Assembly (NCBI GenBank): GCA_021462855.1
Contig: JAJTXQ010000040.1
Coordinates: 1-64,000 of the forward strand
Direction: 5' to 3'
Length of the DNA: 64,000 bases
Source: Dehalococcoidia bacterium
GTDB lineage: Bacteria; Chloroflexota; Dehalococcoidia; DSTF01; JACRBR01
How positions within the stretch are numbered: position 1 is the first letter of the stretch; every line of letters starts with the position of its first letter. Below the pieces are notes generated by a model that was not told the origin of the DNA, made no database searches, and saw nothing but the letters and a program-made list of their open reading frames with translations. Position numbers and translations under genes: made by a program. Shown here one piece after another: positions 37,439 through 42,302 of this stretch.

Positions 37439-38443
37439 TTAGCTCGAAGGGACACCCGGCGCATCGACGCCGGACGGCGCCCAGACGCCGGTGCCGGGGC
37501 GGCCGCCGAACCTCTCGCTGAGGTAGCGGTCCGCACGGATCGCCGCCGTCACGCCGTCGCCGGCCGAGGTCACCACCTGCCGCGCGGAGTTCGCGCGGAT
37601 GTCGCCCGCGGCGAACACGCCCGGCACCGCGGTCTCCATCCATTCGTTGACGATGACGTGGCCGCCGGCGTCCATCGGCAGCAGGCCGCGCAGGTAGCCG
37701 CTGTTCGGCGTCAGGCCGATGAACACGAACAGGCCCGTGACGCTGAGCGTCTTGGTCTCGCCGGTGACGACGTTGCGCGTCCGCACGCCGGTCACCACGC
37801 GCTCGCCGAGCACTTCCTCGACGACGGTGCTCCCGACGAACTCCATCTTCGGGTTGGCGAAGGCGCGCTCCTGCAGGATCGCGCTCGCGCGCAGCGCGTC
37901 GCGCCGGTGGATCATGTACGCCTTCGCCGCATAGCGCGTGACGAAGAGCCCTTCATCGAGCGCCGCATCCCCGCCGCCGACCACGGCAACATCCTGGTCC
38001 GTGAAGAACGCCGCGTCGCACGTCGCGCAGTACGACACGCCGGCGCCGGTCAGGCGGTCCTCACCCGGCACGCCGAGCTTGTTGTGGTCCGCGCCGCCCG
38101 CGAGGATGACCGCCTTCGCGGCGTACTCGCCCTCGCTCGTGGTCACGCGGTGCAGCGCATCGCCAGGCGCGAGCGCGGTGACGTCGGCGGCGACGGTCTC
38201 GGCGCCGTACTTCGTGGCCTGCGCGTGCATTGCGGCGGCGAGCTCGTAACCGTTGATTGCGTCGATGCCCGGATAGTTCTCGACATCGCCGGTGAGCGAG
38301 ATCTGGCCGCCGACGACCTTGCGCTCAACGACCAGCGTGCGCCGCCGCGCGCGGCCGGCGTAGAGCGCCGCAGCGAGCCCGGCCGGCCCGCCGCCGACGA
38401 TGACGATGTCGTATTCGCGCGATGCGCCTTCGGGCGCTGCCAT
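37439..38443 (-). CDS. trxB: Thioredoxin reductase (NADPH-dependent, CATC type)
   Basis: From ATG 38443 (GGGAGGA site) the 334-residue flavoprotein has an FAD-binding GGGPAGLAAALYAG, the redox-active CATC (Cys139, Cys142), an NADPH-binding GGGDAALDEG and the C-terminal FAD motif GVFAAGDIR. It reduces thioredoxin with NADPH by family knowledge. It follows trxA on the same strand with a 108-base gap, so both probably depend on the promoter at 38934-38963. The family also contains ferredoxin-dependent forms; NADPH use is likely but not certain. Confidence 0.95.
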   Translation of the reverse strand: MAAPEGASREYDIVIVGGGPAGLAAALYAGRARRRTLVVERKVVGGQISLTGDVENYPGIDAINGYELAAAMHAQATKYGAETVAADVTALAPGDALHRVTTSEGEYAAKAVILAGGADHNKLGVPGEDRLTGAGVSYCATCDAAFFTDQDVAVVGGGDAALDEGLFVTRYAAKAYMIHRRDALRASAILQERAFANPKMEFVGSTVVEEVLGERVVTGVRTRNVVTGETKTLSVTGLFVFIGLTPNSGYLRGLLPMDAGGHVIVNEWMETAVPGVFAAGDIRANSARQVVTSAGDGVTAAIRADRYLSERFGGRPGTGVWAPSGVDAPGVPSS

Positions 38444-38551
38444 GGCGTCCTCCCGGACATGCGCGACGCCGGCGTGCTGTCCCGCCGGCGTCGCTGGGTC
38501 GGTGGCCCGCCGCATCGCCCTCATTCGACACGGCCGGCCGGTGCCGTGCCG

Positions 38552-38875
38552 TTACAGCACCGCGTCGAGGCGCTCCTTGAGGTCGCGCTTCGGGCGGAAG
38601 CCGACGATCTGGCCGACCGGCTGGCCGCCCTTGAAGACGAGCAGCGTCGGGATACTGCGGATGCCGTACTTCGAGGCGGTGACGACGTTGTCGTCGGTGT
38701 TGAGCTTCACGAACTTCACCTTGCCGTCGTACTCCTGCGACAGCTCGTCGACGACCGGCGCCACCATGCGGCACGGGCCGCACCACGGCGCCCAGAAGTC
38801 CACCAGCACCGGCGTCTGCGCGTCCAGCACTTCCGCCTTGAAGTCCGAGTCAGTTACGTCGTAGGGCTTGGCCAT
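38552..38875 (-). CDS. trxA: Thioredoxin
   Basis: The 107-residue protein begins at ATG 38875 after CAGGAAG. The redox site WCGPC (Cys32, Cys35) and the cis-Pro segment [11 protein letters not shown] are present. It is the expected substrate of TrxB and could also be reduced by the ferredoxin:thioredoxin reductase encoded at 40920-41474. Its promoter carries the CsoR-type operator, which suggests metal-dependent control. Confidence 0.96.
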
Positions 38876-38913: not shown

Positions 38914-38963
38914 TTGACACCCTGTCCGACGCCACTATAAGATACCCCCAAGGGGTATGTCAA
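38914..38963. promoter_or_regulatory. Overlapping divergent promoters of csoR and trxA
   Basis: Plus strand: TTGACA (38914-38919), 16 bases, TATAAG (38936-38941), towards csoR. Minus strand: TTGACA (complement of 38958-38963), 18 bases, TATAGT (complement of 38934-38939), towards trxA. The two -10 boxes overlap. Confidence 0.8.
38942..38958. promoter_or_regulatory. CsoR-type operator
   Basis: ATACCCCCAAGGGGTAT has 7-base arms ATACCCC/GGGGTAT around 3 bases, as in known CsoR sites (TACCCC...GGGGTA). It fills the -35/-10 spacer of the trxA promoter and covers the expected start of csoR transcripts. Confidence 0.85.
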
Positions 38964-38999
38964 GGCGATGCCCGACCGACGAGCCCCGGGGAGGATGCG

Positions 39000-39332
39000 A
39001 TGACCACCGAGACGGCTGAGCGGGGCGCCGTAGCGCAGCTCCAAACCGACATCGGCAAGCGCCTGCGCCGCATCGAGGGCCAGGCGCGCGGGGTGCTGAA
39101 GATGCTCGACGAAGGCCGCGACTGCGAGGAGATGATGACGCAGACGATGGCCATGCGCAGCGCGCTCGACCAGGTGGGCGCGCGGCTGATGCAATACCAC
39201 CTCGAGCGCTGCCTGCTCGAAGGCTTCGACTGCGACGAGGAGCGGATGGCGCGCCTGCGCTCTGCGCTCACGCTGTGGACGCGGTTCGGCCAGCCGGCGC
39301 CGGCAATGACCATCCCGCCGTACGAGGACTAG
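39000..39332 (+). CDS. csoR: CsoR-family metal-sensing repressor
   Basis: The 110-residue protein starts at ATG 39000 behind GGGGAGG. It carries the copper-sensor triad Cys42, His67 and Cys71, with the 25 and 4 residue steps seen in M. tuberculosis CsoR (36, 61, 65), on the usual all-helical scaffold (IGKRLRRIEGQARGVLKML). The triad separates it from persulfide sensors (two Cys) and formaldehyde sensors. It should repress when metal-free and release DNA on Cu(I). No copper exporter gene lies next to it. Confidence 0.9.
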   Translation: MTTETAERGAVAQLQTDIGKRLRRIEGQARGVLKMLDEGRDCEEMMTQTMAMRSALDQVGARLMQYHLERCLLEGFDCDEERMARLRSALTLWTRFGQPAPAMTIPPYED

Positions 39333-40180
39333 CGGCCAGGGGGTGCGGCGTCCGCTCGCGTCGCCTCTTCGAGCAAGATCCACGAGCGCGAGTCGACGGG
39401 GATCCAGTCGTGGATCGCCAGTCCGTTGAGTTCGCCGCCGGTGCTGATCAGGCAGCGGAACGTCATGCGCCCGATGCCGGGCTGATCCCAAACGATCGGG
39501 TAGTTCCAGCGGATCTTGTACCGGTGGTGCGCGGGCGCATCCTCCCAGATCTTGCCGAGGCGCGCGACGTACCTCGGGTCGCCCTTGAGGAAGTGCTCGA
39601 GCACGGCGGCGAAGTACGGCGAAGGCGCCTCGACCTGCTCCTGCGTGCGGTGGAACGTCTTGAACATGCGGGCGATCGCGGCCATCGCCTCGTCCCAGTT
39701 CGCGCAGCGGTCAGCGAAGCGGGGGAGGCTGGCGATGCTGAACAGGTTGCGCTCGACGGGGTCGAGGAACTCCTTCGTCATGTCCACCGACCACACGGCC
39801 TGGGCGGCGGCGTTGGCGGACATCACCTCGCCCCGCTCGCTGGCGATGAACGCCGGCCAGCCGTAGGCCGCGACTTCGGCCGCCGCCTCCTCGGGCGTCA
39901 GCGACCATTCGTCGATGTCCTGCGGGCGCATCTCGACGCCGTCAGGGGCGAAGCCGGCGGCGAATAGGATGCGGTTGCGCCAGCCGCGGTCGAGCTGCAG
40001 CGCGCCGATGATCTGCGAGAGGTGCTCTTTGCGGGGGTGTCGGCGGCCACCCTCGTACCCCCGCAGCGCCCCCACCGAGATGCCGGCGCGCTCAGCGAGT
40101 TGCTCCTGCGTGAGCTTCAGGCGCTTGCGCGCATCGCGGAGCTGCTCCCGCCAGTTCGTATCCGTACTATCGCGCTGCAT
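39329..40180 (-). CDS. XRE-family regulator with MmyB-like ligand-binding domain
   Basis: From ATG 40180 the product is 283 residues. Residues 8-65 are a Cro/C1 helix-turn-helix (LKLTQEQLAERAGISVGALRGYEGGRR). The rest fits the MmyB-like PAS-type domain, with AFIASERGEVMSANAAAQAVW and FLDPVERNLF, which in this group is thought to bind a small ligand such as a fatty acid. It overlaps the csoR end by 4 bases, tail to tail. Its target genes are not apparent. Confidence 0.88.
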   Translation of the reverse strand: MQRDSTDTNWREQLRDARKRLKLTQEQLAERAGISVGALRGYEGGRRHPRKEHLSQIIGALQLDRGWRNRILFAAGFAPDGVEMRPQDIDEWSLTPEEAAAEVAAYGWPAFIASERGEVMSANAAAQAVWSVDMTKEFLDPVERNLFSIASLPRFADRCANWDEAMAAIARMFKTFHRTQEQVEAPSPYFAAVLEHFLKGDPRYVARLGKIWEDAPAHHRYKIRWNYPIVWDQPGIGRMTFRCLISTGGELNGLAIHDWIPVDSRSWILLEEATRADAAPPGR

Positions 40181-40390
40181 GCCCGGAAGATAGCGCGATG
40201 CCGCGCGATGTAATATCGGGTGCTGCCGTACATGCGCGCTATCCGGCGAAAAAACCGACGGAGTGCGGCATTGCTGCCTCACTCCGCGAGGTGCCGAAGG
40301 CCCCGCCTCCTTCGACGAACACCCAAACGGCGCCCGACGGCGAAGCGTTTCATGCGATCGTCAAGTCCGGACGGATTTCGGCGGGGGCGT

Positions 40391-40849
40391 CTAAATGTGG
40401 TATCGCTGCGAGGGTTCGGCGGCCTCTGCGCGGCGGGCGAGCTCGCCGAAGGAGATGCCGTCCATGACGCCGGCGACGGCGTCACGGACCTCCGTCCAGA
40501 CGGTCTTGAGCGTGCAGGCGGCCTCGTCGGCGCACCAGTCGCAGCGGCGGTGCTGCGTGACGCTGGCGCACGGCGCCGGCGCGAGCGGGCCATCGATCAG
40601 CCGGCTGACCTCGCCGACGAACACCTGCTCCGGGTCGCGCGCCAGGCGGTAGCCGCCGTGCGCGCCGAGCCGGCTGACGACGAAGCCGCCGGCCTTGAGC
40701 TGCGCGAGCACCTGCTCCAGGAACTTGACGGAGGCGTTGCACCTGCGGGCGATCTCGGCGGCCGAGATGCCGGGCGCCGCCGACCGCTCGGACCGGGCGA
40801 GTTCGAGCATGGCCTTGAGGGCGAGTTCGCCGCGCGACGTCAGCTTCAT
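40391..40849 (-). CDS. Rrf2/IscR-type regulator with Cys cluster
   Basis: The 152-residue protein begins at ATG 40849 with MKLTSRGELALKAM, the usual Rrf2 winged-helix opening, followed by ISAAEIARRCNASVKFLEQVLAQLKAGGFV and GGYRLAR. A four-Cys segment (PCASVTQHRRC, DWCADEAAC) is in the region where IscR holds its cluster-binding Cys, so an Fe-S or redox switch is likely. It lies 70 bases downstream of the reductase gene in the rex operon. Confidence 0.9.
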   Translation of the reverse strand: MKLTSRGELALKAMLELARSERSAAPGISAAEIARRCNASVKFLEQVLAQLKAGGFVVSRLGAHGGYRLARDPEQVFVGEVSRLIDGPLAPAPCASVTQHRRCDWCADEAACTLKTVWTEVRDAVAGVMDGISFGELARRAEAAEPSQRYHI

Positions 40850-40919
40850 GCGGGGATGATACGCGATGATTGCGGCGGGCGATCCAATTTCCCGCAACCG
40901 CGTGTCCGGCCCGGGCGTG

Positions 40920-41474
40920 TTACGGCGCGGGCTCCGCTGCCGCGTTGTCTTCGCCGGAGGGCAGCGCGGACTTGTGGCCGCCGGTCTTGTCGATCTTGCG
41001 GCCCTGCTTCTCCTCGAGCCGCCCCAGGGCGCGCCCCTTGTCCGGGTGCGGGTCGGTGATCAGGCCGTAGATCTCGCGGCCCTCGTGCCCTTCCGGCAAG
41101 TACTCGGTGATCGGAAGACCTTCCGAATTGCAGAACAGTAGTCAATGGCAGTACTTGTACTTCTGCATCTCCTCGCAGGCGCAGATCCAGGTGCTGCTCT
41201 TCGCTTCCTCGGCCTTGTCCTCGTAGAAGTTGCATGGGCACAGCGGGCGGCCGACTTCATCGATGTGCCGCGCGAGGCCGATGACGAGGAACTCCGTGAT
41301 CTCGCGCTGGGGATGCAGGTACGAGCCGCTCTTCTCCGCGAACTTCTCGACGAACTTCCACATCTTGTCGATGTTCTGCGGCGACGCTTGCTGGCGGTCC
41401 TGGTCGCTCGGCTGATCGATCGCGGGCTGGGACGCTTGCTGGCTGCGATCGTCATTCGGCGGGTCGGTGGCCAT
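40920..41474 (-). CDS. ftrB: Selenocysteine-containing ferredoxin:thioredoxin reductase catalytic subunit
   Basis: The frame starts at ATG 41474 and runs to TAA at 40920-40922 with one in-frame TGA at 41142-41144. Read through, the protein has 184 residues. It has the exact FTR spacing CPC-X16-CAC-X8-CH-[TGA]: Cys79, Cys81, Cys98, Cys100, Cys109, His110 and residue 111. The normal motif is CHC, so the TGA replaces its last Cys. The 73 residues beyond the TGA are family-like (LLFCNSEGLPITEYLPEGHEG). In Synechocystis FTR the matching Cys87 forms the active disulfide with Cys57 and touches the [4Fe-4S] cluster. A SECIS-like hairpin follows the TGA. A terminating TGA would leave a protein without its catalytic residue. 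It follows rex by 12 bases. Confidence 0.88.
41100..41141 (-). promoter_or_regulatory. Bacterial SECIS element
   Basis: Right after the TGA the mRNA forms UCGGAA-GGUC-UUCCGA (41126 to 41111), a 6-bp stem whose loop starts with G 21 bases after the TGA. The apical AGGUCU hexamer is the one I remember from the E. coli fdhF SECIS. Lower pairing (UACU/AGUA) is possible. Distance and G-first loop fit the bacterial SECIS rule. Confidence 0.82.
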
Positions 41475-41486
41475 GACGCTCCGGCG

Positions 41487-42128
41487 TTACTTCGATCCGG
41501 CGGGCAGCTCGCCCTTCAGGTAGTAGGTCATCGATTGTAGCGCGAGCACGGGGTCGATGTCCTTCACGTGCACATCGCGCGGGACGTGCGCGGCAATCGG
41601 CGCGTAGTTGAGGATCGCCTTCACGCCGGCGCCGACGAGCGCATCGATCACCGCCTGCGCCACCGGCGCCGGCGTCGCGACGATGCCGATGTCGACGTGC
41701 GTTGCGCGGAGCACCGAGCGCAACTCATCGACGTGCTGCACGCGCAGGTGGTCGATCTGCTCGCCGACGACGCTGCTGTCGGCATCAAACGCGCCGAGGA
41801 TGCGGAATCCCTGTGGCGCGAACCCGCCGTATGCGATGATCGCGCGGCCGAGCTGGCCGACGCCGACCAGCACCATCGTCCATTCGCGGTCGAGGCCGAG
41901 GATCTGGTGCAGCTCCTCGAGCAAGCGCTTCACGTTGTAGCCGCGCCCCTGCTTGCCGAAGCGGCCGAAGTAGCTCAGGTCCTTGCGGATCTGCGCCGGC
42001 GTGACGCCGAGCTGCGCGCCCAGCTCCTGGGATGACACGACTTCGCGCCCGTTCCGGTCGAGCGCGGCGAGGGCGCGCGCATACACCGGCAGGCGGTCGA
42101 TTACGACATCGGGGATCTCGATGGGCAT
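41487..42128 (-). CDS. rex: Redox-sensing repressor Rex
   Basis: The 213-residue protein starts at ATG 42128 (GGAGCC site). It has the Rex winged helix (VSSQELGAQLGVTPAQIRKDLSYFG, then KQGRGYNV) and the Rossmann NADH site VLVGVGQLGRAI, and a C-terminal swap helix. Rex leaves DNA when NADH/NAD+ rises. It is the first gene of the operon rex - reductase - rrf2. A Rex-like palindrome at 42172-42189 overlaps its promoter. Confidence 0.96.
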   Translation of the reverse strand: MPIEIPDVVIDRLPVYARALAALDRNGREVVSSQELGAQLGVTPAQIRKDLSYFGRFGKQGRGYNVKRLLEELHQILGLDREWTMVLVGVGQLGRAIIAYGGFAPQGFRILGAFDADSSVVGEQIDHLRVQHVDELRSVLRATHVDIGIVATPAPVAQAVIDALVGAGVKAILNYAPIAAHVPRDVHVKDIDPVLALQSMTYYLKGELPAGSK

Positions 42129-42171
42129 CCGGGAGGCTCCGGTCGCGCCTGGCGCGGGTTCCACGCGCCGA

Positions 42172-42189
42172 TTGCGCCAATTTTCGCAA
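42172..42189. promoter_or_regulatory. Candidate Rex operator
   Basis: TTGCGCCAATTTTCGCAA is an 18-base palindrome with arms TTGCG/CGCAA, the same length and outer bases as the Rex box TTGTGA-N6-TCACAA. It lies 44 bases before the rex start and touches the -10 box. Confidence 0.6.
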
Positions 42190-42217
42190 ATGTAGCACCG
42201 GCTCCCCGAACGATCAA
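42189..42217 (-). promoter_or_regulatory. Promoter of the rex operon
   Basis: On the minus strand TTGATC (complement of 42212-42217), 17 bases and TACATT (complement of 42189-42194) precede the Rex box. Confidence 0.55.
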
Positions 42218-42302
42218 CGCGCCGAAGCCGGGGATGAATCTGATTCCAGATCCCCCGGGCATCCACCGCATTGCAGATACGCATACGGCGGCAGGGGGCG
42301 GC

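Follow-up and report, generated by a model that had tools for sequence, protein, structure and literature searches.

A palindrome shared by divergent promoters points to a thioredoxin-dedicated CsoR-family repressor in Dehalococcoidia, possibly released by reactive sulfur or thiol oxidation

In the window (the whole stretch of Dehalococcoidia DNA that was analysed, 64,000 nucleotides long), the genes for thioredoxin reductase and thioredoxin (trxB and trxA, minus strand) lie back to back with a gene for a 110-residue CsoR-family protein (plus strand), and a single palindrome between them overlaps both promoters. Based on this architecture and on its conservation, it is very probable that the palindrome is the operator through which the CsoR-family protein would bind and repress trxA, and the control of trxA by this protein, together with its autoregulation, appears well supported. 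The best overall explanation that we can offer, a thioredoxin repressor which is predicted to be released by reactive sulfur or by thiol oxidation, stands at roughly even chances. The gene was called CsoR in the original prediction, a label which should be read as "CsoR-family". The elements of the locus are the following (positions are those of the window):

37439..38443, minus strand: trxB, thioredoxin reductase with a CATC motif (TIGR01292, 1.3e-105)
38463..38494, minus strand: 12-bp perfect stem with an 8-nt loop and no T tract, in the trxA-trxB gap (sequence and fold)
38552..38875, minus strand: trxA, thioredoxin with a WCGPC active site (TIGR01068, 1e-38)
38914..38919, plus strand: -35 TTGACA of the CsoR-family gene (promoter scan and relatives)
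38934..38939, minus strand: -10 TATAGT of trxA, with an 18-nt spacer occupied by the predicted operator (promoter scan; a TA...T-like hexamer stands at the same position in relatives)
38938..38943, plus strand: -10 TAAGAT of the CsoR-family gene (conserved TAnnAT), overlapping the predicted operator by 2 bp (promoter scan and relatives)
38942..38958, no strand: predicted operator, palindrome ATACCCCCAAGGGGTAT (ATACCC-N5-GGGTAT; sequence, near-invariant in 30 relatives)
38958..38963, minus strand: -35 TTGACA of trxA, with one base common to the end of the predicted operator (promoter scan; TTGACA abuts TACC..GGTA in 51 of 60 loci)
39000..39332, plus strand: CsoR/RcnR-family (DUF156) repressor gene, 110 aa (PF02583 match; GGAGG ribosome-binding site at 38990-38994)

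The repressor matches the PF02583 (DUF156) model with 76.1 bits, against a gathering cut-off of 22.8, and carries, as C42, the cysteine that is invariant in the CsoR/RcnR family (position X, at the start of helix 2). trxB is likely cotranscribed with trxA, given that the gaps between the two genes are short in some relatives (L031 and L037), and the hairpin in this gap, perhaps an element for processing or attenuation, could tune trxB. A second typical thioredoxin is encoded elsewhere in the same genome (C70); with no other copy of the palindrome there, this one would not be under its control. Beside the CsoR-family gene, the region 39329-42284 contains, as named from the translations, an XRE-type regulator (39329-40282), an Rrf2-family regulator (~40391-40849) and a Rex-like redox regulator (~41487-42128), which, counting the CsoR-family gene, makes four regulators, several of them of redox type, in about 3.5 kb.

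The promoter scan returned two promoter-like sites, against 0.2 expected. The trxA promoter (TTGACA-N18-TATAGT) agrees with the consensus at 11 of 12 positions, and its 18-nt spacer holds the palindrome exactly as had been predicted. The palindrome had also been placed on the promoter of the CsoR-family gene, and it does cover the -10 and start region there; the -10 then proposed, TATAAG (38936-38941, N16), is present in the sequence but does not stand in the conserved register. The plus-strand -10 that is conserved across 30 relatives reads TAnnAT and stands directly 5' of ACCCC; it corresponds here to TAAGAT at 38938-38943 (N18), which replaces the earlier hexamer and means that the predicted operator overlaps the -10 itself. 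Within the window, ATACCCCCAAGGGGTAT has no second match even when three mismatches are allowed (shuffles gave 0), and ATACCC-N5-GGGTAT occurs a single time at 0-1 mismatch in the 3.02-Mb genome, all other matches having two mismatches.

The proposal that one operator would serve both the CsoR-family gene and the divergent trxA, with trxB downstream, agrees with a strong conservation of the locus. A search of genome contigs gave five homologs (66-77% identity, titled as Chloroflexota or Dehalococcoidia MAGs) with the same layout as the window and, among 294 genomes drawn from the class, all of the 30 best loci have a divergent trxA with TACCC-N5-GGGTA in between. Across these 30 relatives the A-TACCCC..GGGTA-TGTCAA block is invariant or nearly so, as is, nearly, ATACCCC..GGGTATGTCAA. 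Forty more loci were fetched, giving 70, from which nine were set aside (one at a contig edge and eight of a Cys-Tyr-Cys subtype without trxA); trxA is divergent in all 61 assessable loci, the TACC-N7-GGTA palindrome is found in 60 and TTGACA directly abuts it in 51. Our literature search, which covered open-licence papers, did not turn up any description of a CsoR-family gene in divergent orientation to trxA. In other Chloroflexota classes (L102, L110, L115 and L094), a CsoR-family gene without the Tyr and a thioredoxin gene share a strand, the former being upstream in three cases and downstream in one, and by this gene order the thioredoxin link is one that reaches beyond the class, in another layout.

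Copies of the palindrome also occur elsewhere in relatives. As counted from the table of matches, the pattern ATACCCCNNNGGGGTAT has 72 sites in 56 of the 294 genomes, most of them at the csoR-trxA locus, against one site for the reversed pattern; pattern sites in L064, L065 and L068 were set aside as apparently lying within coding sequence. In four genomes that belong to a single family, an extra site precedes an Rrf2-cysK operon; others stand before DUF302 genes (two genomes), before trxB itself (one genome), before genes for a cysteine desulfurase and for a TlpA-like thioredoxin, and before several genes of unknown role. We infer that these sites are served by the trx-linked repressor, and they could also belong to another paralog. 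In three genomes of one family (L069, L071 and L072), a short CxxC...CxxC protein of ~72 aa with no Pfam match stands at the palindrome, with more similar sites nearby, and in four genomes (L052-L055), which come from one family within the same taxonomic order, a 96-aa protein weakly resembling DUF2630 follows the palindrome. Identical palindromes are found upstream of some Tyr-type CsoRs of other Chloroflexota classes, so that the operator sequence alone cannot tell the type of sensor, and its use as a discriminator between copper and sulfur was dropped.

Because CsoR usually stands for copper, the original prediction tied trxAB to this metal: Cu(I) would bind at Cys42'-His67-Cys71 (the sensing site of the CsoR family forms between protomers), the repressor would leave the operator and trxAB would be induced, linking copper to thiol repair. 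Copper damages thiols, so that an induction of thioredoxin would make sense. The window protein shares with the copper CsoRs (M. tuberculosis 2hh7, Geobacillus 4m1p and the genome's own copA-linked paralog) the family, a G/C-tract operator over a promoter and the first-shell Cys-His-Cys triad (X-Y-Z, here C42, H67 and C71), whose three positions are kept in every Dehalococcoidia trx-linked sequence compared; Cu(I) binding by this protein in vitro would not surprise us. Nevertheless, metal specificity is better predicted by second-shell residues than by the ligands themselves, and in the W-X-Y-Z-(A-B-C) fingerprint it is Tyr (A) and Glu (B) that carry the Cu(I) allosteric network, and in two CsoRs the Cu(I) allostery is nearly lost when this Glu is substituted (PMC4235346). 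The window protein has D41 at A and Ser in the B column, not one of the 30 trx-linked proteins from Dehalococcoidia has Tyr at A, and Glu at B is not conserved among them, whereas both residues are present in all 15 copper-type paralogs of the class that were compared (the genome's own and 14 from relatives), eight of which have a copper-ATPase match less than 2 kb away. Additionally, the neighbours in the window are trxA and trxB rather than copper export or chaperone genes. The gene copA, which it had been proposed to look for elsewhere, is present in the same genome, beside a second, canonical CsoR-family member (C52) whose operator is different (ACCCCTCCGGTGGGGG). The genes at the extra palindrome sites in relatives include none for copper and, as detailed below, the window protein falls outside the Cu/Ni clade. 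The copper link of trxAB is thus not supported, and we regard Cu(I) sensing as unlikely. The lack of copA in one family (f61) was discarded as an argument against copper, being weak: most P-type ATPase matches there are sub-cut-off and several genomes are incomplete.

Some further variation in sensor residues was observed. An extra cysteine, Cys78 (GFDC; 39231-39233), conserved in the family to which the window belongs (7 of 7 rows) but in no other, could be an additional redox site. The class also contains a third CsoR-family subtype (~RDCESxxTQ...NNYMxLC), with Tyr in place of His at Y (L144, L162, L163, L168, L170, L172, L173 and L174), several members of which adjoin formate-dehydrogenase/molybdopterin-like genes or "CNWCSY" iron-sulfur-like genes. 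On a Thermomicrobium plasmid (L129), a CsoR-family gene lies beside 4Fe-4S and molybdopterin oxidoreductase genes.

The family trees place the trx-linked and the Cu/Ni clades apart, with support of 100/99 in one tree and of 97/91 in another, which had been expanded by PDB members and by eight members from plasmids whose gene context is known. On the non-Cu/Ni side of the main split the trx-linked clade is accompanied by S. aureus CstR, by the pneumococcal 7mq1 (which we take to be a CstR, its PDB title saying CsoR) and by members linked to rhodanese or MBL-hydrolase genes. A kinship between the trx-linked clade and CstR is only suggested by this placement; the trees hint at a sister relationship, which we did not adopt, since the alternative that joins the trx-linked and Cu/Ni groups against the sulfur group was not rejected (AU test, p 0.36).

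As in InrS or FrmR, a different ligand could act on the same scaffold, either a metal (Ni, Zn or Co) or an aldehyde or electrophile for which the invariant Cys would be the reactive residue. The triad without Tyr does resemble that of InrS, and FrmR, which senses formaldehyde via the invariant Cys, offers a precedent (PMC5016687); the conserved neighbours, however, are trxA and trxB and not metal exporters or formaldehyde genes, and the window protein lies outside the branch that holds InrS, which leaves this explanation rather doubtful. Finally, single palindromes can arise by chance, and the one described here might be unrelated sequence beside a constitutive trxA, but its sequence and position are near-invariant in 60 loci from many families and the reversed-pattern control gave one site against 72, making this extremely improbable.

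The mechanism that we favour is that of a thioredoxin-dedicated CsoR-family repressor which would bind the one palindrome of the intergenic region. When bound, it would block RNA polymerase at trxA, where the operator lies inside the -35/-10 spacer, and would also block its own promoter, where the operator lies over the -10 and the start. Release of the repressor would follow from the action of a thiol-reactive effector on Cys42/Cys71, a persulfide or polysulfide or another oxidant being the most likely candidate. The levels of thioredoxin and thioredoxin reductase would then increase, and their reduction of the modified thiols would close a feedback loop. That the effector is of this thiol or reactive-sulfur kind is a proposition that we hold to be evenly balanced. 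Three points speak for it: species of this kind are reduced by thioredoxin (reactive sulfane sulfur is removed by thioredoxins in Streptomyces; PMC9952706), most of the further putative targets in relatives are sulfur or thiol genes, and a related protein, TTHA1953 of Thermus thermophilus HB8 (CsoR-family, CstR-like), is a cysteine-modulated repressor which, under reduced conditions, keeps its DNA binding in the presence of Cu, Ni or Co, and which binds upstream of a thioredoxin gene, among the sulfur genes validated in vitro (PMC10318464).

The comparison with known systems reveals both likenesses and differences. TTHA1953 shares with the window protein the family, sites that are TAC/GTA palindromes and a thioredoxin gene among the targets, but it acts on Sox genes that lie at a great distance from it, whereas the window regulator is divergent from trxA, and its motif is without the C4/G4 tract present in the window. 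The persulfide sensor CstR of S. aureus and its relatives resemble the window protein in the family, the divergent arrangement, the non-Tyr residue before the invariant Cys and the side of the main split on which they fall, and the cst intergenic region has an ATACC..GGTAT-type site similar to the window palindrome. Nevertheless, CstR (S. aureus and pneumococcal) has Asn at Y, whereas the window protein, with the Cys pair present, keeps His67; CstR also sits with cstA, cstB and TauE, whereas the target in the window is trxAB, and linked sulfide-oxidation or sulfurtransferase genes are absent from the window, sulfur genes being found only at the extra sites of some relatives. In Nostoc, too, thioredoxin has a dedicated redox-sensing regulator: RexT, which senses H2O2 and induces thioredoxin (PMC8960804), is a protein of the unrelated ArsR family. 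Against a thiol-type effector, the fact that the triad is intact throughout the clade, while CstR lost the His, suggests that this His still matters, perhaps for a metal.

Somewhat short of an even chance, in our judgement, is the broader proposal of a distinct, class-wide CsoR-family clade which would have gone from metal export to the control of thioredoxin through a fixed operator-in-promoter module, and which would sense reactive sulfur or thiol redox state with its Cys-His-Cys site intact. Thioredoxin is a central housekeeping redox system, and a conserved one-site switch would show how the Dehalococcoidia-type Chloroflexota, a little-studied group, set their thiol balance. For the family, a protein which has the copper ligands without the copper second shell would provide a clean test of how the effector is chosen, and it also serves as a caution that an annotation as "CsoR" need not mean copper.
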